DNA of 40,162 bases, taken from the IMG/VR virus record IMGVR_UViG_3300034280_000679, positions 1 through 40,162 of that record, one strand, 5' to 3'. This stretch comes from a virus. Of this stretch, positions 1-29,438 are shown piece after piece (position 1 is the stretch's first letter; each line of letters starts with the position of its first letter). The position numbers and the translations under genes were made by a program. The notes beneath the pieces were generated by a model that did not search any database, was not told the origin of the DNA, and worked only from the letters and a program-made list of their open reading frames with translations.

Positions 1-30
1 GTAGCGGTGCCGTCGGTAGATAATGGGTGC
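1..30 (+). ncRNA. Truncated 3' half of a folded repeat
   Basis: The first bases read TAGCG, g, TGCC, GT and then a run starting CGGTAGATAA. The same order (TAGCG, a, TGCC, GT, closing-stem strand) forms the 3' half of the complete stem-loop at 6838-6936. The 5' half would lie left of the window, so pairing cannot be checked. The assignment rests on this short match only. Confidence 0.35.
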
Positions 31-75
31 GGAGCCACTAGTGGTGTTTTGCGAGTCTACACAGGACTAGCGAGT

Positions 76-110
76 CATATATTGCAGCAAGGCACTTGTT
101 GCAATATATG
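76..110 (+). ncRNA. 16-bp hairpin, copy 1 of a covarying pair
   Basis: Bases 76-91 pair with 95-110 over 16 positions around a GCA triloop, with one G-U pair. A second copy lies at 1983-2017 with the same flanks (GGACTAGCGA before, GAGCGGGGCTAAGA after). Each stem position that differs between the copies still pairs when read as plus-strand RNA. No open reading frame of note covers it, and no T-run follows, so it is not a standard terminator. Confidence 0.6.
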
Positions 111-179
111 CGAGCGGGGCTAAGACCCTAGAGAGATTACATATTAGACAGCTGCTTCAAATGATGAAGCGTCAGCTTT

Positions 180-404
180 CTAGTAGAGACCGAACGCCTG
201 ACCTTCTTTGTCTAATCCAAACAACGCACCTGCGTCGTTTCCTTCTGTGTCCATTGAGGGATACAAAATTGTTCCGCTTGACAAAACTAAACAACTTGGG
301 ATTTCGTTTTTACGCCAACCCTCGTTGTCCATTTCCTCTTTTGTCATCGGACGTATAGCAACGATTGTTGCGCCAACAATGCCTGCGTCTATTGCATTGC
401 TCAT
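180..404 (-). CDS. Small conserved phage-type protein, unknown function
   Basis: 74 residues. It starts MSNAIDAGIVGATIVAIRPM, has an EEMDNEGW segment and ends in an acidic, glycine-rich tail (GTILYPSMDTEGNDAGALFG). This pattern (hydrophobic strand, 'MTKEE...GW', 'DGT.LYPS.D.EGN..GALFG') resembles small uncharacterised proteins I associate with phages; that is recollection, not a search. There is no signal peptide or membrane segment. Its ATG overlaps the stop of the upstream membrane-peptide gene (ATGA), so the two are probably co-translated. No function can be assigned. Confidence 0.75.
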   Translation of the reverse strand: MSNAIDAGIVGATIVAIRPMTKEEMDNEGWRKNEIPSCLVLSSGTILYPSMDTEGNDAGALFGLDKEGQAFGLY

Positions 405-544
405 GTTGTCTCCTTGCCGTCGTATGGCTCGTTGAATTCGTCTGCAAGTGGCTTATTGAATTCGTCTGCAAAGATACACGCGTAAACGAGCGCACCCCCG
501 ATATATACAAATGCGCATACAAGCGCAATAACGCTATGATTCAC
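401..544 (-). CDS. Small single-span membrane protein with duplicated tail
   Basis: 47 residues from a GTG start at 544. I chose this start because GAGGAGG sits 5 nt upstream; the longer frame to 589 would place that site inside the gene. Residues ~4-22 (SVIALVCAFVYIGGALVYAC) are a single transmembrane helix. The tail carries two in-frame copies of ADEFN[KE]P, produced by an exact 16-bp direct repeat at 432-447 and 456-471 (24-nt period). It overlaps the next gene by ATGA. Function unknown; a short membrane peptide near accessory phage genes could be an accessory lysis or inner-membrane factor, but nothing shows this. Confidence 0.65.
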   Translation of the reverse strand: MNHSVIALVCAFVYIGGALVYACIFADEFNKPLADEFNEPYDGKETT

Positions 545-601
545 GACATCCTCCTCAAGCCGCCAAGATAATTCCGATAAGAATTGCAAAAAGTACAGTG
601 A

Positions 602-1117
602 TCACCAGATCTGAAACCCTCCGCTATGGCGCAAAAAGAGCGCAAATTCCTGGACGTTCTCAACCGAGAACGGGTAGCTGGATTCAAGCGAATCAACGAC
701 GCCTTCGCCATGGCAACCATTGCAAAAACCATGCGTGCGCCCAACTACCAAGGCAGTTGTCTCGTCAAGTTCACGATCAGGAAAGCCATGTTCAAGACCA
801 ACAGCGTCAGTGCGAATACCAGTTCCACCGCAATATGTACAGTCCTTGCGAGGAATGTTTGCAATGCGCTCACGGTACCCCTCTTCGTATGACTTGGTAA
901 TACCAAGTTCAATCTCACGCAAGAGGATGTCAGCAAGTTGGCTTGCACCTTCAGCGTTGAGTCCATCTCCGTCATTGAAGTGACCGTCCACGTCAGAACA
1001 GAGTTCTGGAGCTGCCGTTTCGCAGTAGTCCCACAACGGGCGCCACCACCAAACATTGTTCCTGAAGTATTCACCACACTTTTCCGTGGGCTTCCTTCCG
1101 ATTACATCCATACCCAT
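602..1117 (-). CDS. Zinc-motif phage protein (two CxxC-G pairs)
   Basis: 171 residues. It begins MGMDVIGRKPTEKCGEYFRN followed by a tryptophan-rich patch (VWWWRPLWDYC). Central residues ~97-145 carry CTYCGGTG and CNGCHGEG, the CxxCxGxG repeats of the DnaJ-type zinc finger, about 40 residues apart, so one zinc site is likely. There are no J-domain residues, so it is not a DnaJ. Similar 'MGMDV.G..P....G.YFRNN.W.W.PLW.Y' proteins are known to me from phage and metagenomic genomes as hypothetical proteins. AAGGAGG lies 4 nt before the ATG. It has its own promoter at 1145-1173. Role unknown. Confidence 0.85.
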   Translation of the reverse strand: MGMDVIGRKPTEKCGEYFRNNVWWWRPLWDYCETAAPELCSDVDGHFNDGDGLNAEGASQLADILLREIELGITKSYEEGYRERIANIPRKDCTYCGGTGIRTDAVGLEHGFPDRELDETTALVVGRTHGFCNGCHGEGVVDSLESSYPFSVENVQEFALFLRHSGGFQIW

Positions 1118-1144
1118 AATGCCTCCTTTGTTTGGATGATGAAC

Positions 1145-1173
1145 ATCATAAAAGGTTGTAATAAAAAAAGCAA
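1145..1173 (-). promoter_or_regulatory. Sigma-70-type promoter for the 602-1117 gene
   Basis: Read on the minus strand: TTGCTT, 17-nt spacer, TATGAT. The predicted start of transcription is about 20 nt before the ATG at 1117, leaving room for the AAGGAGG site. Confidence 0.55.
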
Positions 1174-1192
1174 CTCAAAAAAGAATTGAAAA

Positions 1193-1618
1193 CTACGCGA
1201 CTGGCCAAAAGTATGGGAGATCATCCTCCACCAACCAATCCCACTGGCCGTAGAAAACGCGATCCTTACGAAGAAGATTACTTTGGTGGCTCAGATGTAC
1301 TCGCGAATCTCCCCACCAGACCGGCAAATCATCAAAGTCCGGGCTTGAGACGGCAAGCAGCTTTTCTTTACATGTGTCTTTGTAGCCCCGCCCAATCCAT
1401 TCATCGCAGATTGCAACTCCGTACGCGATCAGGCCGTCGAGATTGTTTTGCCACATCTTTGTAGCTGGGTGGTTTCGCCATCCATGATTTCTTCTTCCGG
1501 TGACCGGGACAAGCGCTTGAACAATTTGAAGCGTTTCAACTCTTTGTTTTCCGAGGCGCTGGCGATCTAAAACTCGAGCGCACTGGGCAAAGTGCTCATA
1601 AGGTACGAATGTCTGCAT
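1193..1618 (-). CDS. Pyrimidine-dimer DNA glycosylase-like protein (Pyr_excise family)
   Basis: 141 residues from the ATG at 1618, chosen because GGAGG lies 8 nt upstream; the frame stays open to 1690 but that part has no start signal. It opens MQTFVPYEHFAQCARVLDRQ and continues RLGKQRVETLQI, GWRNHPATKMW, CDEWIGRGYKDTC and LSHQSNLLRKD. This series matches the actinobacterial MSMEG_6728-type relatives of T4 endonuclease V, which in the T4 enzyme removes UV-induced pyrimidine dimers. The glycosylase activity is inferred from the family; the actinobacterial branch is not well characterised. It is transcribed from its own promoter at 1638-1666. Confidence 0.8.
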   Translation of the reverse strand: MQTFVPYEHFAQCARVLDRQRLGKQRVETLQIVQALVPVTGRRNHGWRNHPATKMWQNNLDGLIAYGVAICDEWIGRGYKDTCKEKLLAVSSPDFDDLPVWWGDSRVHLSHQSNLLRKDRVFYGQWDWLVEDDLPYFWPVA

Positions 1619-1637
1619 TAGTAAATCCTCCGCAGCT

Positions 1638-1666
1638 ATCATCCACCACCGTAACAATAATGTCAA
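1638..1666 (-). promoter_or_regulatory. Promoter for the glycosylase-like gene
   Basis: On the minus strand: a perfect TTGACA, 17-nt spacer, GATGAT. It lies about 20 nt before the ATG at 1618, with GGAGG between. Confidence 0.6.
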
Positions 1667-1982
1667 CTTGTTACGGGGCTCTTGACCCAAGATACCCAGA
1701 TCAGATCAAGCTACCTGCAGCTGTGAAAAAAGTTCCGCCGGGCCCTGGCAGCTGGAAAAAAGAGTTTTATTCCCTCGAGCAGCTCCGATCTGGCTCTCGA
1801 AGGAGAAGTTTTTAACTTCGCACGTGCGCGACCCAGGTAAAGCCAATAACACCAAGCCGGGATGGCCTCCTCGGCATCGTTAGCCCCGTCTTCAGCTACT
1901 ACGAAGCATTAGCGATTACCAGGTAGCTACATCACGTACTGAGCCGGAACTATCCATAAATGCCCATACGGGACTAGCGAAT

Positions 1983-2017
1983 CATATATTGCAGCGAGGT
2001 ACTTGCTGCGATATATG
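1983..2017 (+). ncRNA. 16-bp hairpin, copy 2 of the covarying pair
   Basis: Bases 1983-1998 pair with 2002-2017 around a GTA triloop. Relative to copy 1 (76-110) the stem has one A-U to G-U change, one U-A to U-G change and one G-U to G-C change. All keep pairing on the plus strand. The surrounding bases (GGACTAGCGA and GAGCGGGGCTAAGA) are almost identical in both copies. Confidence 0.6.
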
Positions 2018-2047
2018 TGAGCGGGGCTAAGATCTTACCTGTGTTGC

Positions 2048-2150
2048 GGGTTTAGTTCATATCTTTGTTACCAGAGGTCAGAAGCGTTTTTGTGTAGCGC
2101 AGCGTAACGAATTAGCGTTTGACCGTTGGTAATAAAGAATGACTAAGCCT
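2048..2150 (+). ncRNA. Long stem-loop, copy of a covarying RNA family
   Basis: Inner helix: 2062-2073 (TCTTTGTTACCA) pairs with 2127-2138 (TGGTAATAAAGA), 12 bp with one G-U. Then an internal loop GA/GT, then GGTCA (2076-2080) with TGACC (2120-2124). The apical loop contains AAGCG and two TAGCG. An outer helix adds about eight pairs (2052-2060 with 2139-2146) with small bulges, and possibly four more to 2048/2150. The same architecture with different helix sequences recurs at 6656-6725 and 6838-6936. Function unknown. Confidence 0.7.
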
Positions 2151-2255
2151 TCTTGAGTTGTCTAGTGAATCATTACGGGACTCATGACCTTTAAATAGTT
2201 AAACCACATGTCAAACCAGCCCGAATATTGCTATTCAGAAAAACATTTAAAAAAG

Positions 2256-2284
2256 TTGACAACAGGAGCCGGTGCAAGTATATT
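2256..2284 (+). promoter_or_regulatory. Strong sigma-70-type promoter upstream of WhiB
   Basis: TTGACA at 2256-2261, 17-nt spacer, TATATT at 2279-2284. The WhiB gene starts 30 nt downstream, with AAGGAG 7 nt before its ATG. It would also drive the coupled genes to 2995 and probably the SNF2 gene. Confidence 0.75.
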
Positions 2285-2313
2285 GATTAAACCTACTAAC
2301 TAAGGAGCTATAT

Positions 2314-2571
2314 ATGACCTGGCGTCTCGACCGCAACTGCGAAGACAAAGATGTTTCATTTTTCTTTCCATCCAACCGAGGAGGAGTAAAGCGCGCAATC
2401 AAAGTTTGCAGTGAGTGTAACGTAAGGGCTGAATGTCTTGAGTTTGCAATCTGCAATCAAATCACCGACGGTATTTGGGGCGGCACCACGGAAACGTCTC
2501 GCATCAAGCTGATTCGTGATCGCTTTGGTCGCCTCGGTAATGTTGATTTCAATTACATGGCGGTTAAGTGA
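2314..2571 (+). CDS. whiB: WhiB-family transcriptional regulator
   Basis: 85 residues. Four conserved cysteines that hold a [4Fe-4S] cluster are present: C9, C32, C35 and C41 (CSECNVRAEC), followed by the G-I-W-G-G turn at 53-57 and a basic tail (RIKLIRDRFGRLG). WhiB proteins bind the principal sigma factor of Actinobacteria and tune promoter choice; phage copies can act as dominant regulators of host WhiB genes (known for mycobacteriophage TM4). AAGGAG precedes the ATG and a textbook promoter lies upstream. Its stop overlaps the next ATG (TGATG). A second, different WhiB is at 11312-11614. Confidence 0.95.
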   Translation: MTWRLDRNCEDKDVSFFFPSNRGGVKRAIKVCSECNVRAECLEFAICNQITDGIWGGTTETSRIKLIRDRFGRLGNVDFNYMAVK

Positions 2572-2630
2572 TGAGCATGATTAGTTTTGTTTTTATTGTA
2601 GTACTCGGTGCATTTTTTGGAGCGCGATAA
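2571..2630 (+). CDS. 19-residue hydrophobic peptide, translationally coupled
   Basis: Encodes MSMISFVFIVVLGAFFGAR. Residues 3-17 form one very hydrophobic stretch. Its ATG overlaps the WhiB stop (ATGA) and its TAA overlaps the ATG of the following gene (TAATG), so it exactly fills the gap with stop-start overlaps on both sides. That is a good sign of real translation, either as a functional membrane peptide or as a coupling leader for the downstream gene. Too short for family assignment. Confidence 0.5.
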   Translation: MSMISFVFIVVLGAFFGAR

Positions 2631-2995
2631 TGTTTGTGACTGGTCTTTATATTGACGGTAACCGCATCACTCGCGTACAAGTAGATACAAATAGCGACTC
2701 ATCAATCTCAAGCATGATTGACGGAACCATTGACGCTGTTACAAGGAAAACTCAAGATGGACAAATGTTTTCAGTCTTCGTTAATGACACTAGTATTTTT
2801 AGCAGTTTTGAAATGAACCCAATTGCTTCAATCGTTGCTGGGAGTTATCTTGTTGGGCCAGCCGTGATCACTGGAACTGCGCCGAACGGAGAAACAATTC
2901 CAGTACCCCTTTCGGTTATTGTGCACGCAACATCAATTCTTGAGACCATGGCTCTTCATCAGGCCTTCGGTTCGTCAGATCAGCTGCCCGTATGA
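2630..2995 (+). CDS. Hypothetical protein
   Basis: 121 residues, predominantly beta-strand-like alternation, with the segments MFVTGLYIDGNRITRVQVD, FSVFVNDTSIFSSFEMNPI and TIPVPLSVIVHATSILETMA. There is no transmembrane helix, cysteine or known catalytic motif. It starts at an ATG that overlaps the stop of the coupled peptide gene and is followed after 16 nt by the SNF2 gene. I do not recognise the family. Its position suggests co-expression with WhiB. Confidence 0.75.
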   Translation: MFVTGLYIDGNRITRVQVDTNSDSSISSMIDGTIDAVTRKTQDGQMFSVFVNDTSIFSSFEMNPIASIVAGSYLVGPAVITGTAPNGETIPVPLSVIVHATSILETMALHQAFGSSDQLPV

Positions 2996-3011
2996 ACCGT
3001 TATAACCATCA

Positions 3012-5024
3012 GTGATGAGGTACGACACATCTGCAGGAAGTTTATTCTTCCTCAAAGACATGCTTGTTTTTGAGTTTGAATACAACGCTGAGCTCGTAGA
3101 CGAAGTTCGCCGCATACCTGGAGCAAAGTACGATAATAAGTTTAAAGTTTGGCGAGTTCCAGCTACACAGATAGATGCTTGTAGAAGAATTGCGCAAAGA
3201 CACAACCTCTTCATGGAGCCAAGCGTCGCTAAATTTGAAGTACCACGTACACAGAGTGAGTTTATCGGATTGAAGAGGGACGGGGAATGGGTTTACCTCG
3301 GCTTTCTTTACGACCAAGTTAAGGTCAGAAAAGTAAAACAACTTCCTGGCGTTACGTGGCATTCAAAGTCCAAGGCGTGGAGGGTTCCAGTGACCGCCAT
3401 CGCAGAAGCTGTTGCATGGGCTGACAATTTTGATGTACCCGTTGACGATGATGTGCGTGCCGAGGCCGAGGAATTCATCCAGAATAGGCGCAAAAAAAGC
3501 GAAGCATCACGATCCGTAGACGCCGATGTGAATATACCAAACATGGTTGGAGACCTTTTACCGTACCAGCGGGCTGGGGTTGCATACGCAGTTGATGCAC
3601 GCAGGTGTTTTATCGCTGACGATATGGGTCTCGGCAAAACTGTACAGGCTCTCGCTGCTTTAGAATTTGCTTCCCAGACAAGCGCAGTATTTCCAGCAGT
3701 TGTAATTTGCCCACCAAGCCTGGTGCTTAACTGGAAAAAAGAGATCAACAGATGGTTTCCGCACCGAAGTGTAGAGGTTGTTACTAACCGACGCAATTTC
3801 CCTGGCTCATCCGCCGCCGTCAATTCTAGTGCTAAGAATTACGGGGCTTCTGACTACTTGGTTGTTGGTTACTCAAACATTTCCCACTGGGAACAGCTGC
3901 TGCTCGGTTTTAACGCGTACGTGTTTGACGAATCGCATTACGTAAAGACCCCAACAGCACAGAGAACAAAGTCGGCAATCAAACTTGCTAAGTCATGTCC
4001 GAAAACTGGAATGGTTCTGTGCCTGACCGGAACTCCAATCACAAACCGTCCTGCAGAGTATGCATCACAACTGGAAATCATTGGTCGGCTCAACTCGCTC
4101 GGTGGAAAGTGGGGCTTCTACAGGCGCTACTGCGGTGCTTATCAAGACAAGTGGAAAGTGTGGCACACTGACGGCGCCACGAATCTTGACGAACTCAACG
4201 ACACTCTTCGCTCGGTCTGCTATATCCGCCGGACAAAGACACAAGTACTCGACGAGCTCCCAGATGTCAGACATGCTCCTATTGTTGTTGACGGGACTGC
4301 CAAGATCATGCGTGAATACAAGGAAGCTCAAGACGACATTATTGACTACCTGGTCAAGCGCGCTGCAGAGATTGCTCGCGAGCTCGGAAAATCACCTGGA
4401 TCCGCAGCTGTTCGCGCCAGGATGAAAGCGGAAGCAAACCAACACCTGGTAAGACTTGCGGTACTTCGCCGGATTGCCGCCCGTGCAAAAATGGACGCGG
4501 TCACCGAATGGGTTGAATCGCGGATCGCCGGCGGGCAAAAGGTTGTTATTGCAGCTCACCACCGGGAAATTGTTGATGAACTTGCGAACAAGTTCGGTGG
4601 CCTGAAGATCCAAGGTGGGATGGACGTCTCGGATGTTGAGGAGAACAAGCGCCTTTTCCAGGAAGGTGATGTCACCGAAGCCCCGTGCATCGTTCTTTCC
4701 ATCCAAGCAGCCAAGACTGGACACACGCTCACGGCAGCACAGGAAGTTTTGTTCGTTGAGTTACCCTGGACACCAGCTGATGTGGATCAAACATACAGTA
4801 GATGCCATAGATTAGGACAAAAGGGTTCAGTAACTGCAACGTACATGATTACCGAAGGTACCGTTGACGAAGAGATCTATGAGTTGATCCAAGCGAAGCG
4901 CTCAATCATTGACGCAGCTACCGAAGGAACCGAACTTGACGAAGAAGCATCTGGGTCACAGATCGTGATGCGACTGCTTGAGGCGGGACTTCAGTCCAAG
5001 GCTGTCCGCACCTCTAGCAAATAG
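3012..5024 (+). CDS. SNF2-family DNA-dependent ATPase with two HARP-like repeats
   Basis: 670 residues from GTG 3012; ATG 3015 is equally possible and no clear ribosome site decides. The N-terminus has two similar modules, each ending in a pattern like 'PG.......KVWRVP' (about residues 15-75 and 85-145). This resembles the HARP repeats of SMARCAL1-type annealing helicases. The SNF2 motor follows: Walker A DDMGLGKT 203-210, DESH 306-309, LTGTP 338-342, and the second lobe ending 'QTYSRCHRLGQKG' near 593-605. Such enzymes rewind or remodel branched DNA; here a role in replication-fork handling or recombination is likely (inference). Its 3' end overlaps the convergent gene 4991-5221. Confidence 0.93.
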   Translation: MMRYDTSAGSLFFLKDMLVFEFEYNAELVDEVRRIPGAKYDNKFKVWRVPATQIDACRRIAQRHNLFMEPSVAKFEVPRTQSEFIGLKRDGEWVYLGFLYDQVKVRKVKQLPGVTWHSKSKAWRVPVTAIAEAVAWADNFDVPVDDDVRAEAEEFIQNRRKKSEASRSVDADVNIPNMVGDLLPYQRAGVAYAVDARRCFIADDMGLGKTVQALAALEFASQTSAVFPAVVICPPSLVLNWKKEINRWFPHRSVEVVTNRRNFPGSSAAVNSSAKNYGASDYLVVGYSNISHWEQLLLGFNAYVFDESHYVKTPTAQRTKSAIKLAKSCPKTGMVLCLTGTPITNRPAEYASQLEIIGRLNSLGGKWGFYRRYCGAYQDKWKVWHTDGATNLDELNDTLRSVCYIRRTKTQVLDELPDVRHAPIVVDGTAKIMREYKEAQDDIIDYLVKRAAEIARELGKSPGSAAVRARMKAEANQHLVRLAVLRRIAARAKMDAVTEWVESRIAGGQKVVIAAHHREIVDELANKFGGLKIQGGMDVSDVEENKRLFQEGDVTEAPCIVLSIQAAKTGHTLTAAQEVLFVELPWTPADVDQTYSRCHRLGQKGSVTATYMITEGTVDEEIYELIQAKRSIIDAATEGTELDEEASGSQIVMRLLEAGLQSKAVRTSSK

Positions 5025-5221
5025 GTTCCGTTGTCTTTCACCTCAAGCACAGCTGCACCCAGTTCTTCGAGTATCGCATCCGCAACATCTGCCATCTGCC
5101 GCTGGAGTTCGCGCAGTTCGTCTCCGGATGCGGATCCAGCATCAGCCAGGTCGAGCAATATGTCCGTAATGGTATTAACCAGCTCTACCCTGGCTTCGTA
5201 AATATTTGGCGTTTGGGGCAT
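4991..5221 (-). CDS. Small helical hypothetical protein
   Basis: 76 residues, largely alpha-helical: MPQTPNIYEARVELVNTITD, then DELRELQRQMADVADAILEE, then a short strand-like end (VLEVKDNGTYLLEVRTALD). The middle could form a coiled coil. No cysteines or membrane segment. It converges on, and overlaps by 34 bp, the end of the SNF2 gene. There is no clear ribosome binding site before the ATG. Its start faces away from the SSB promoter. Function unknown. Confidence 0.65.
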   Translation of the reverse strand: MPQTPNIYEARVELVNTITDILLDLADAGSASGDELRELQRQMADVADAILEELGAAVLEVKDNGTYLLEVRTALD

Positions 5222-5239
5222 GACGTGTACATTAGCAGG

Positions 5240-5268
5240 TGCTATATTGCTTGACGCGGGAGTCCCGC
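5240..5268 (+). promoter_or_regulatory. Extended -10 promoter and small inverted repeat before SSB
   Basis: TG-C-TATATT at 5240-5248 is an extended -10 element; any -35 (TGACGT, 5221-5226) is weak. Just downstream, GCGGGA-g-TCCCGC at 5256-5268 is a 6-bp inverted repeat over the expected transcription start, a plausible operator or 5' mRNA hairpin. Confidence 0.45.
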
Positions 5269-5290
5269 AATCACGAAACGAGGTACGAAA

Positions 5291-5743
5291 ATGAGCAAGC
5301 CAGTTGCTACGGTAACCGGGAATCTTACGGCAGATCCCGAGATCCGCTTTTTTGATGGTGGAAGTGCGAAGGCATCTTTCAGTATCGCCGTAAACAGTCA
5401 GTGGAAAGATGCGTCAGGGCAAATGCAAGAGCGCACTTCCTACTTTGATGTCGTGGCATGGAAAGCCTTGGCGGAGGACATCGTGCGTGTCGCCACCAAG
5501 GGTGCGCGTGTCACCGTCACCGGAACGCTGGAACAGCGTTCATGGGACGACAAAGCCAGTGGTCAAAAGCGCACCAAGGTTGAAATCGTTGCCGAAGAGG
5601 TGGCGGTTTCCGTGCGGAGCATTGAAGAGTTCACACGCAAACAGCGTGTGGAAGGTTCTGATGGAGCCACAAAGAAGCCCGTAAGGGGCCGTGGCCCAGC
5701 GGTGAATCGTCAGGATATCCCCGAGGACGAAGAGCCGTTTTAA
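5291..5743 (+). CDS. ssb: Single-stranded DNA-binding protein
   Basis: 150 residues. An OB fold spans residues 1-105: MSKPVATVTGNLTADPEIRF, SFSIAVNSQW, TSYFDVVAWKALAEDIVR, GARVTVTGTLEQRSW and KRTKVEIVAEEV. A flexible linker and the acidic C-terminal tip DEEPF follow. In cellular SSBs this tip recruits replication and repair proteins, and here it is nearly canonical (usually DDDIPF). GAGG precedes the ATG by 8 nt. The gene is closed by the strong terminator at 5772-5812, giving a single-gene unit with its own promoter. It coats single strands during phage replication. Confidence 0.96.
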   Translation: MSKPVATVTGNLTADPEIRFFDGGSAKASFSIAVNSQWKDASGQMQERTSYFDVVAWKALAEDIVRVATKGARVTVTGTLEQRSWDDKASGQKRTKVEIVAEEVAVSVRSIEEFTRKQRVEGSDGATKKPVRGRGPAVNRQDIPEDEEPF

Positions 5744-5771
5744 TTCTTCCTTGGGCAGGGAGAAAAAAGAA

Positions 5772-5812
5772 GACCCCACCGTGGAGGGCTACGGTGGGGT
5801 CTTTCTTATTTG
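5772..5812 (+). terminator. Intrinsic terminator after ssb
   Basis: GACCCCACCGT pairs perfectly with ACGGTGGGGTC (11 bp, 8-nt loop), followed by TTTCTTATTT. It ends transcription 29 nt past the ssb stop. Confidence 0.9.
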
Positions 5813-5856
5813 CTATGCAAGCAAGTAGGCAACAAGTAAAAGTAAACCGAGCGTCA

Positions 5857-6153
5857 TCACTTCTCGGTCGCCCAGTCCCACGAACCGTCCATGGAGAGAA
5901 CCATGATGGGGTCAAGGTTGCGACAGTTGTTCGGGTCGGTGTCGTCATGCACCAAGCGAAATGCACTCACATCCCAAGTGAAGTCCTTGTTGATGACGAG
6001 GTCACATTCGGGCTTGGAGTTCTCTGCCAACAGGGGAGAGTTCTGAAGCACCAAGTAGGTAGCAAGAGCCACCGAGGCACTCACGCCGAGCCAAAAGGCG
6101 AGACGGACGGTAGAGCGAATAAGATAGTAAGCAGGGCTGTGATAGTAGGTCAT
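5857..6153 (-). CDS. Membrane-anchored hypothetical protein
   Basis: 98 residues from the ATG at 6153; a TTG at 6189 would add 12 residues. It starts MTYYHSPAYYLIRSTVRLAF. Residues ~12-36 (IRSTVRLAFWLGVSASVALA...) are one transmembrane helix preceded by positive charge. The remaining ~60 residues (with cysteines in KPECDLVINKDF and PNNCRNLDPIM) would face outward and might form one disulphide. No ribosome binding site is visible at either start. It is transcribed divergently from the 6198 gene. Function unknown. Confidence 0.6.
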   Translation of the reverse strand: MTYYHSPAYYLIRSTVRLAFWLGVSASVALATYLVLQNSPLLAENSKPECDLVINKDFTWDVSAFRLVHDDTDPNNCRNLDPIMVLSMDGSWDWATEK

Positions 6154-6197
6154 GCAAAGTACGCTAATGAAAGGGTGTGACAAAGTCAAGTATCGTT

Positions 6198-6623
6198 ATG
6201 GAACCAGTGAACCGCAAGAAAGCACCCCAGCAAGAGATAGTTGAGATTAATAGGGTCGGCTCATGGGGGCGAGTTACCTACCAGCACAAACTCTCCTGCG
6301 GCCACGTAGAGATCCGGAAGCGGCCCTCATCAGCCCCGAGAATCGCTTGTACGTGGTGTGTTCAGGCTGAACGCAAAGACGAGGAACTTAGGGCATTGGC
6401 GATCCGCGAACCAGAGTCGCTTGAGATCCCAGATGATGACATCAGGCCAGCGGGACTGGAGACAGCCGAAGGAGAGGCCGTGGCCATTAAAGCTGCAATC
6501 GTCCGGGCCTTGGGATGCGGAGCTGAGGCAGTTGACGTAGTTCTTGAAGACAACGATGGAACTCTCGAGGTGTCTGGAGCTATCGTTTTCCTGGACGCAA
6601 TCCAGGCACGTAGCTATCTTTAG
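6198..6623 (+). CDS. Hypothetical protein with paired cysteines
   Basis: 141 residues from the ATG at 6198; a GTG at 6177 would add seven. It has a basic N-terminus (MEPVNRKKAPQQ), then SCGHVEIRKRPSSAPRIACTWC, which may bind zinc (C-G-H and C-x-x-C). The C-terminal half is acidic and helical and ends DNDGTLEVSGAIVFLDAIQA. No known catalytic motif. A non-coding block with folded repeats starts directly after its stop. Function unknown; nucleic-acid binding is possible from the zinc-like motif. Confidence 0.7.
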   Translation: MEPVNRKKAPQQEIVEINRVGSWGRVTYQHKLSCGHVEIRKRPSSAPRIACTWCVQAERKDEELRALAIREPESLEIPDDDIRPAGLETAEGEAVAIKAAIVRALGCGAEAVDVVLEDNDGTLEVSGAIVFLDAIQARSYL

Positions 6624-6655
6624 CTACGGGACTTGCTACCCGAGTAGCGAGTGGT

Positions 6656-6725
6656 CTTTCTGCGGTGCCAGAGTCTAAGCGTAAGTAGCAGCGCGTATGT
6701 AGCGAGACGTTGGCAGAGCATAAAG
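6656..6725 (+). ncRNA. Stem-loop of the covarying family
   Basis: CTTTCTGCGGTGCCA (6656-6670) pairs with TGGCAGAGCATAAAG (6711-6725) except at three internal positions. Then GA/GT, then GTCT (6673-6676) with AGAC (6705-6708). The loop reads AAGCGTAAGTAGC...ATGTAGCG. Compared with 2048-2150 and 6838-6936, both helices differ in sequence but the GA/GT internal loop and the loop motifs do not. Confidence 0.65.
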
Positions 6726-6837
6726 GCACGAGCGTTAGTAACATTCTTGAGGAGTTGCGAGTTATCACATTGATGGCGCCGGCATCAATAGGGATGCGAG
6801 CGACGATGTCTACACGGGACTGCTGAGCACTAGAGAA

Positions 6838-6936
6838 GCATTGTTGTCTTGTTCGGATAAGAGGCAAAGCGTAAGTAGCGAAGCGCATTTAGCGAAGCGG
6901 ATGTAGCGATGCCGTTTATCTGAACAAGGAACATGC
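6838..6936 (+). ncRNA. Best-formed stem-loop of the covarying family
   Basis: CTTGTTCGGATAA (6848-6860) pairs with TTATCTGAACAAG (6916-6928), 13 bp with one G-U. Then GA/GT, then GGCA (6863-6866) with TGCC (6910-6913). Outside, TGTT/AACA and GCA/TGC extend the helix. The 43-nt apical loop contains three tandem 14-nt units built on TAGCGAAGCG (starts 6876, 6890, 6904). The copy at 6656-6725 has one such unit fewer. Confidence 0.75.
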
Positions 6937-6973
6937 GTACCAAATTATGTGTATAGGACTCATTCATCTGTAC

Positions 6974-7013
6974 CACAAGCCTCTTGTGGGACTTGATGAT
7001 GAGTACGAAGTCC
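6974..7013 (+). ncRNA. Two abutting hairpins
   Basis: CACAAG-CCT-CTTGTG (6974-6988) is a perfect 6-bp hairpin. It directly abuts GGACTT...AAGTCC (6989-7013), another perfect 6-bp stem with a 13-nt loop. Neither is followed by a T-run. Confidence 0.45.
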
Positions 7014-7076
7014 GCACGGGACTAATGAGCCATAGACCACCCAAAAAAGACGAAACTACAGAAAAATTTCAGAAAG

Positions 7077-7139
7077 TTATCCACAGCTCAAACCTTTGAA
7101 ATATAAGCATATCAACAAAAAACGACAGCGTTATCCACA
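7077..7139 (+). other. Two perfect DnaA boxes, possible replication origin
   Basis: TTATCCACA occurs at 7077-7085 and 7131-7139, same strand, 54 bp apart. Both match the DnaA-box consensus TTATNCACA exactly. The DNA between is AT-rich (AAATATAAGC, ATCAACAAAAAA). A near match TCATGCACA lies at 7179-7187. This resembles an origin where host DnaA could bind and open DNA; the phage encodes no DnaA that I can see in this window. Confidence 0.5.
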
Positions 7140-7148
7140 GAGTTCTAC

Positions 7149-7176
7149 TTGATTTTTTGGTTCATAGGGTTAAAAT
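7149..7176 (+). promoter_or_regulatory. Promoter for the lysozyme-like gene
   Basis: TTGATT (7149-7154), 16-nt spacer, TAAAAT (7171-7176). It lies directly after the DnaA boxes and about 80 nt before the proposed TTG start. Confidence 0.5.
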
Positions 7177-7257
7177 AGTCATGCACAGTTACTACATATG
7201 GCGAGCGCCTATACCTTCCAGCTCGTCGGCCCCATCCATCTCGAGAAGGAGAACCCT

Positions 7258-8022
7258 TTGATTAAGAGACTTATTTTGTCATTGACCGTATTAACTAGCG
7301 TCGTGAGCCTCGAAGCGACATCAAGCCATCCAGCTAAAGGCCTCACGGCCAGCGAGGCATCCCTGCCCAGAGATGTAGTTTTGCAAGTCCTTAAGCCTCT
7401 CCAGGCGAAGTCAGCTGTTGTTAATAAGAAAACAGAAGTAGAGCGACTGATACTTACTGGCTCCTATAAGTTTGGAGAGAAAAGCGAAGCAGTCAAAAAC
7501 CTTCAGCGCATCGTAGGAGCTTACGCAGACGGCTTCTACGGATGGAAGACTTACAGCCTCCACAAGAAGAAGCTTGCCGACATGGGACTTTCTTTGACAA
7601 CACTGCCTTCCGTGTCTGTAGCAAAAAAGACATCAACAAAGCCACGTTACCCATCCGACAAGAAGCTGCGTTGTCCAAAGTTTGAAGCTAAGTTCAAAGA
7701 GTACGGTCTTCCAGTTGACGTCTTTAGTTACATTGCGTACCGAGAGTCGCGCTGCAATCCGAAATCAGTAAACGCCACTTGGGACAAGAATGGCAAAATC
7801 AAGTGGACGCTCAACAAGGACGGTTCATTTGATAGTGGGTTACTCCAGATCAACAGTTCTTGGATTCGTACAGTCAGACAGGTGTGCAAGGTTGATACAG
7901 GCAGCTGGGCAAAAGACCTCAAGGTTCTTCTCAACTTGGACTGCAATCTGAAAATGGCTAGCTGGATCATGGAAAACACTTCCGGAAAGCTCAAGAACTG
8001 GCGCATTTACGGTGGGGATTAA
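7258..8022 (+). CDS. Secreted lytic transglycosylase-like protein
   Basis: 254 residues from a TTG start at 7258. I chose it because AAGGAG lies 6 nt upstream and the protein then begins with a clean signal peptide (MIKRLILSLTVLTSVVSLEA); the frame also has an ATG at 7198 with no such features. Residues ~70-115 (KFGEKSEAVKNLQRIVGAYA, then DGFYGWKT) resemble a peptidoglycan-binding repeat. The C-terminus is lysozyme-like: catalytic-type E163 in YRESRC, then DSGLLQIN. Several cysteines could form disulphides. It probably cuts the host cell wall, at entry or lysis. No holin is adjacent. Confidence 0.8.
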   Translation: MIKRLILSLTVLTSVVSLEATSSHPAKGLTASEASLPRDVVLQVLKPLQAKSAVVNKKTEVERLILTGSYKFGEKSEAVKNLQRIVGAYADGFYGWKTYSLHKKKLADMGLSLTTLPSVSVAKKTSTKPRYPSDKKLRCPKFEAKFKEYGLPVDVFSYIAYRESRCNPKSVNATWDKNGKIKWTLNKDGSFDSGLLQINSSWIRTVRQVCKVDTGSWAKDLKVLLNLDCNLKMASWIMENTSGKLKNWRIYGGD

Positions 8023-11311: not shown

Positions 11312-11614
11312 ATGGATGAGGCAGACAAAGTAGAAGCACCACGCAATGGAGCTTGTATTGGTAAGCCAGTTGATTGGTTCTACCCATCTGCGCCACGAAC
11401 ACGTCGGTCAATTATCAACAACCGAGCTGCTATCAAGCTTTGTAATGAATGTGACGTCAGTAATGATTGTTTAAACTATGCGCTTAAATTTGAGCTGCAT
11501 GGCATTTGGGGTGCAACCATGCCGAAAGAGCGTGAAGAGATTAGACGCACACGCGGAATCGCTTTACTTCACAGGGTGTACGATGCGTCCACAGGCGAAG
11601 TGACCATCAGATAG
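11312..11614 (+). CDS. whiB: Second WhiB-family regulator
   Basis: 100 residues. Cluster cysteines C15, C44, C47 and C53 (CNECDVSNDC) and G-I-W-G at 64-67 are all present. The C-terminal part (KEREEIRRTRGI) is basic. It shares little sequence with the WhiB at 2314 beyond the family signature, so the two probably have different targets. It has its own near-leaderless promoter and is followed after 14 nt by the primase-helicase gene, which may place replication under the same promoter. Confidence 0.95.
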   Translation: MDEADKVEAPRNGACIGKPVDWFYPSAPRTRRSIINNRAAIKLCNECDVSNDCLNYALKFELHGIWGATMPKEREEIRRTRGIALLHRVYDASTGEVTIR

Positions 11615-29361: not shown

Positions 29362-29438
29362 ACCCCTGTATCCCCTCACTCTTATAAAGTGTAGAAAGGG
29401 TAGTTGGTGACACGTGGGTTCAAGTCCCATCAGGGGTA
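29362..29438 (+). tRNA. Aberrant tRNA-like element, possible anticodon UAU
   Basis: Acceptor ACCCCTG (29362-29368) pairs perfectly with CAGGGGT (29431-29437). The T arm GTGGG-TTCAAGT-CCCAT is canonical. However, there is no normal D arm. CACT-CTTATAA-AGTG (29377-29391) makes an anticodon-like hairpin with TAT, only 8 nt after the acceptor, and a 22-nt segment separates it from the T arm. It may be a degenerate tRNA-Ile, a pseudo-tRNA, or a processing signal. Confidence 0.45.

Follow-up and report, generated by a model that had tools for sequence, protein, structure and literature searches.

Sponge RNAs such as CsrB and CsrC are made up of many hairpins that present one short motif, GGA, in their apical loops, and the HK022 put-type element controls an operon from a position immediately downstream of its promoter. 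Among phage elements, GOLLD and ROOL are large ornate RNAs (PMC12286853), TIGR arrays, which go together with Tas proteins, are phage-borne tandem arrays of which a stem-loop variant with variable palindromes exists (PMC12045711), and cluster A mycobacteriophages as well as Rhodococcus phage WC1 possess highly expressed noncoding RNAs (PMC10986025).

Here, we analysed a whole IMG/VR virus record of 40,162 bases (the window), which, like all sequences used in this study, is a metagenome contig. The best-supported statement on this locus and its relatives is that actinobacteria phages carry a so far undescribed noncoding array, which occupies one strand and is conserved in structure. The window encodes two WhiB proteins (2314-2571 and 11312-11614), and WhiB serves as a marker for actinobacteria phages (PMC6802176). 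It also encodes an SNF2 helicase, SSB (5291-5743, plus strand; Pfam SSB), whose gene neighbours the arrays in relatives, a primase/helicase, a ribonucleotide reductase, ThyX, a C5 methylase and a major capsid protein, with the closest capsid relatives found in Brevibacterium and Gordonia phages at 46-48% identity. A weak tRNA-like match at 29362-29438 (plus strand), barely over the Rfam threshold and uncalled by ARAGORN, lies near a tRNA-Met gene.

Rfam families, TIGR, CsrB, put, terminators and REP elements do not account for the array, since each differs from it in at least one of the defining features that were tested. Like GOLLD and ROOL, the array would be a large structured noncoding RNA of phages or prophages, of unknown function and kept by covariation. 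However, GOLLD and ROOL each form one compact fold of about 600-850 nt, whereas here hairpin domains between heptamers are arranged linearly over up to 5.7 kb, and the covariance models of these families gave no match. Rfam 15 at gathering score returned only tRNAs for the window and the arrays, and at E ≤ 10 nothing relevant for window positions 1-7300; a preceding reading of the window from its letters only (the sequence-only reading) had likewise known no RNA class with such a plan. TIGR dual-repeat units measure 36 nt, compared to about 135-390 nt here, and the Pfam Nop domain PF01798 had no match in eight contigs (fragments), although a divergent Tas Nop may escape this model. The working principle of CsrB and CsrC is the one that we propose for the arrays, but the motif that would be repeated here is an AGCG opposed to another AGCG inside stems and not an apical GGA, and there is no homology between the two. 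The mycobacteriophage and WC1 RNAs, noncoding RNAs without an assigned function from phages of actinobacteria, are likened to the array by description only and are not known to be related to it in sequence or array plan. Named phages gave no nucleotide match when searched with clusters II and III or with a portion of a 28-motif array, and nothing matching was found in the literature on phage noncoding arrays.

GA/GT hairpins in the window and its close relatives

The sequence-only reading had proposed a family of plus-strand stem-loops with changing outer and inner helices around a constant GA/GT internal loop. Three complete copies and a truncated one were indeed present where it had placed them: the hairpin of cluster II at 2048-2150 (core 2067-2133) and hairpins IIIb at 6656-6725 (core 6664-6717) and IIIc at 6838-6936 (core 6854-6922) of cluster III, each backed by copy alignment, covariation and the covariance model R1, as well as the 3' half of a cluster I hairpin at 1-23, which is cut by the window start. 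The inner helices read exactly as described (GGTCA/TGACC, GTCT/AGAC and GGCA/TGCC), and the outer helices are distinct in each copy and unrelated between copies. The same hairpins occur in the same places in the related contigs G001 (locus L006; IMGVR_UViG_3300020159_003530), G002 (L007), G003 (L008) and the shorter G004 and G005. Altogether, 15 copies were found in four related phage contigs, all on the plus strand in window orientation, and the hairpin set as a whole represents four distinct genomes and one distant example.

Across the 15 aligned copies, the GA/GT internal loop is invariant and the first inner pair is always G-C, while outer positions 1-5 pair in all cells but one despite differing letters. 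Covariation was quantified for 14 distinct sequences and 11 inspected pairs in a gap-free alignment with the loops cut short. In this alignment, 93.5% of the cells paired, compared to 61.5 ± 2.9% in shuffles; with the partner strand slid, the value was 27-47%. Of the 11 pairs, 10 had changed on both sides. The covariation score reached 0.853, as opposed to 0.224 in shuffles and at most 0.166 with slid partners, and the observed pairing was never attained in 10,000 trials in which whole 3' strands were swapped among copies. Selection on structure, as previously claimed, is borne out by these values. The folding z-scores of the hairpins ranged from about −3 to −7 relative to dinucleotide shuffles. 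Some 13-15 bp away from the GA/GT loop, the outer helix of most copies contains a U.G pair with a bulged purine next to it.

The upper helix of copy IIIc differs between the window and G001 or G002 at 7 and 11 of 20 positions, respectively, with pairing kept, compared to 14 of 331 and 22 of 330 positions in the rest of cluster III and none of 24 in the IIIc lower helix. These rates indicate that the upper helix has changed about eightfold faster than the sequence around it, with both sides rewritten in step.

Model R1 was built from six short-loop copies and recovered the remaining ones, always on the plus strand and including the truncated copy at 1-23 (20.3 bits, E = 0.0008, 5' truncated), the complete orthologue of which lies at L006:2937-2991. 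The covariance search that the sequence-only reading had called for thus found homologues in related contigs and in a single orientation, with three to four clear copies in each contig of good coverage and no hit to the opposite strand. A further G003 copy (L008:195-246) scored weakly because its inner part differs. Across 74 more distant loci, the best R1 hit had an unconvincing E of 0.5. A direct structural scan yielded one good distant GA/GT hairpin (L111:2797), which is located between SSB and WhiB, possesses a 15-bp outer helix of unrelated sequence and has a delimiter 98 nt upstream. Matches to the loop pattern in GTDB genomes (38) gave no GA/GT hairpin on folding and were read as chance.

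Delimited units and long arrays

The hairpins had been taken for a stand-alone family, but they belong as modules to arrays, which in relatives have as many as 28 delimiters. They alternate with a 15-nt motif, which reads ACGGGACTNNYGASC in the window clade and is contained in the extended form WCGGGACTNNNRANY obtained from the arrays. The same delimiter occurs across all lineages examined, and it is mostly unpaired in predicted unit folds.

In the window, all elements of the three clusters lie on the plus strand. Cluster I contains the delimiter variant ACAGGACTAGCGAGT (61-75), assigned by sequence and alignment with the other delimiters, directly followed by a P hairpin with a 16-bp stem (76-110). 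Cluster II has the motif matches ACGGGGCTCTTGACC (1673-1687), ACGGGACTAGCGAAT (1968-1982; also aligned) and, at its end, ACGGGACTCATGACC (2175-2189), and holds a second P hairpin with a 16-bp stem (1983-2017); both P hairpins are inverted repeats backed by folding and arm alignment. In cluster III, the delimiters, again identified as motif matches, are ACGGGACTTGCTACC (6626-6640), ACGGGACTGCTGAGC (6814-6828) and, closing the cluster, ACGGGACTAATGAGC (7016-7030); successive delimiters are 188 and 202 nt apart in the window, compared to 193 and 190 nt in G003. Besides the P hairpin, the units are filled by an additional, fold-predicted hairpin at 6959-7003, the inner stem of which covaries between contigs. 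A pyrimidine dimer DNA glycosylase gene (1193-1690, minus strand) adjoins cluster II. The ORF at the SLT gene is called from an ATG at 7198; positions 7198-7260 may be a short conserved leader, and the SLT gene may in truth begin at a TTG near position 7261, a start that would have a good ribosome-binding site and give a signal-like N-terminus. In G001, L006:2224-2869 (minus strand) contains minus-strand delimiters divergent from cluster I along with T-rich hairpins, none of the GA/GT type.

A profile of the SNF2 helicase led to about 75 further viral contigs with 55-60% identity, several of which harbour one-strand arrays of 17-28 CGGGACT motifs over 3-5.7 kb. These include G010 (L149:7444-13179; IMGVR_UViG_3300002835_010611) with 28 motifs over 5.7 kb, G011 (L151; 3300008110_008245) with 22 over 4.8 kb and G012 (L153) with 18 over 3.5 kb, and L113, L114, L116 and L118 have at least 17 each within the stretch read. 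Each array holds a single orientation. CGGGACT occurred 521 times, compared to 14-134 occurrences, never in such clusters, of six control 7-mers of similar or identical composition. The delimiters are mostly spaced by 135-390 nt, and single-sequence folds predict that each unit forms one long hairpin domain. The unit order of G010 is kept in G011 with apparent gains or losses of units, and double compensations between the two made up 125 of 763 changed pairs, as opposed to 64 of 1898 for shifted control pairs. The ORFs tested inside the arrays gave no convincing Pfam match. Thirteen loci of the G009-G011 group (L107, L113-L119, L121-L123, L126 and L136; some near-identical and thus few independent lineages) as well as L148 have their first motif about 290 bp away from the SSB start and in the opposite orientation; in the window clade, cluster III is located about 0.9 kb downstream of SSB.

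A motif scan of viral contigs returned 12 stretches, two of them in the known relative G003 and the other ten with isolated or unordered motifs, which were read as chance. In L125, L135, L140 and L141, CGGGACT recurs about every 350 nt, and these series were set aside; that of L125 lies partly inside the helicase gene. Antisense pairing of the delimiter to 16S rRNA or the tRNA T-arm was rejected after comparison by eye, as AGTCCCG fits both and the longer RNTYNNNAGTCCCGW neither. A second dispersed element, GACGG[TC]GGCGGATGA, usually follows CGGG[AG]CT or AGCCCCG by about 20-40 nt. It occurs at 3807-3821 (minus strand) in the window, at L006:2826 and 2216 (minus strand), at L149:13223 (plus strand) and at L151:7802, 10381 and 10999 (plus strand). 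With at most one mismatch, it was counted seven times in each of G001 and G002; G011 has five sites, and the element closes the arrays of G010 and G011.

The array strand shows a strong enrichment of AAGCG, GAGCG and AGCGA; in G010, AAGCG occurs 46 times on this strand and twice on the opposite one. The enriched repeated element is RAGCGA, which faces itself inside stems. In predicted folds, AGCG stands opposite AGCG in 33-40% of the blocks, compared to 2-8% with randomly placed blocks, and the opposed blocks form A.G, G-C, C-G and G.A. The sequence-only reading had noticed AAGCG and TAGCG repeats and assigned them to an apical loop. The repeats are there, but in the predicted folds this stretch is not an open loop and consists largely of opposed AGCG blocks, and by these folds the loop repeats of the window are the same module as the AGCG of the arrays. 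Primosome (AAGCGG) sites offered nothing beyond a shared hexamer, and no useful literature support was found for them.

Strand and RNA nature

Transcription of the plus strand had been argued from the G-U pairs. This argument is suggestive, but it is weaker than claimed, since only 3 of 150 core cells are G-U. Under neutral scoring, the stems contain 32 G.T versus 7 A.C, and for changes between orthologues in the larger arrays the ratios were 77:43 and 62:48. The folding energy is lower on the plus strand. Shuffled units reproduced about 60-86% of this difference, which is thus mostly base composition, although it was larger than in the respective shuffles for 50 of the 64 units and for 11 of the 12 hairpins. 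One orientation per cluster, the excess of G.T over A.C and the lower plus-strand energy together make plus-strand RNA likely. It is no more than likely, and single-stranded DNA may apply instead, because composition explains most of the energy difference and orthologues show just a modest excess of G.T. Inside the G010 array, promoter-like sites occur at expectation and terminator-like sites below it (3 in 6.7 kb around the array, 6.6 expected), which suggests that the units are not separately transcribed.

Candidate functions

All readings start from the array as observed, with its motifs, its single orientation, its conserved structure and its adjacency to SSB. Judged from sequence, the hairpins probably represent a new class of structured phage RNA. 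We read them as modules of a noncoding array in plus-strand RNA, for which we infer one long transcript. Covariation, the common delimiter, AGCG facing AGCG, the single orientation, the G.T excess, the numbers of promoter- and terminator-like sites in the G010 array and the lack of convincing Pfam matches in the tested ORFs all count for this reading. A unit consists of a short linker with WCGGGACUNNNRANY and a subsequent long hairpin domain, inside which AGCG blocks are predicted to oppose each other; the subfamily noticed by the sequence-only reading also has the GA/GU internal loop. As the helices tolerate any pairing sequence, they may act as struts that position the modules, and repeated identical modules on such letter-free struts look, at a guess, like a multivalent protein binder. 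The long phage RNA might then present many copies of one site to a phage or host RNA-binding protein and serve as a sponge or scaffold during infection. We put forward such a plus-strand noncoding RNA array as a multivalent protein-binding sponge or scaffold tentatively, with somewhat less than an even chance of being correct.

Alternatively, the long transcript might be a precursor that is cut at the single-stranded CGGGACU linkers into stable hairpins of about 140-390 nt, each with a role of its own. The recurrence of a mostly unpaired delimiter between hairpins would suit such processing, as would the apparent gain or loss of units between G010 and G011 in an otherwise kept order. However, neighbouring units have common motifs but no evident targets, and we know of no nuclease that recognises the CGGGACU delimiter, so that small-RNA production appears rather doubtful. 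A different role would be that of single-stranded DNA hairpins, which might act on one strand as recognition or priming structures at or near a replication origin. Two perfect DnaA-box-like TTATCCACA sites (7077-7085 and 7131-7139, plus strand) mark a possible origin adjoining cluster III, and their 54-bp spacing is kept in every related contig that covers them; moreover, SSB directly adjoins the arrays, the cumulative GC-skew minimum lies near 2 kb, and the core helices are nearly all Watson-Crick. Yet no DnaA boxes turned up next to the long arrays, known origin structures need far less than an array of as many as 28 hairpins over 5.7 kb, and G.T exceeds A.C, which leaves a function in replication unlikely.

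Intergenic phage hairpins with conserved bulges and internal loops, clustered near the divergent region of the genome, might also be cis-acting transcription elements, either put-like antitermination sites or clusters of hairpin terminators. We regard this as very unlikely, since clusters II and III lie upstream and not, like the HK022 element, downstream of the promoter-like sites (consensus matches only) of whiB (2256-2284) and the SLT gene (7149-7176), opposite-strand genes come after cluster I, and 28 units would be excessive. The depletion of terminator-like sites in the G010 array likewise speaks against intrinsic terminators, i.e., a stem followed by a T run. There is hardly any case for a REP- or MITE-like mobile hairpin repeat that has spread within these phages: each genome does have several copies, which lie in spacers and share a short constant motif at the hairpin foot, but REP and MITE copies are alike in sequence, whereas here the helices are wholly different between copies with the structure kept. 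In addition, the copy positions are conserved between genomes, and no transposase was found among the scanned window genes.

The preferred array-RNA reading would, in its full form, amount to a new modular class of phage RNA of several kb, with up to about 28 hairpin domains between CGGGACU linkers, an AGCG/AGCG core and one upper helix that is rewritten fast and in step, and might serve as a multivalent decoy or scaffold while actinobacteria are being infected; this, too, is a tentative proposal that we rate somewhat below even. As the motifs are clear and a covariance model as well as a genomic address next to SSB are at hand, RNA-seq, pull-down and structural work can begin directly. Tailed phages can rarely afford kilobases of noncoding DNA. 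A one-strand hairpin array of 3-5.7 kb that has no Rfam entry and whose structure is under selection in several lineages of phages would rank as a major phage RNA awaiting study.
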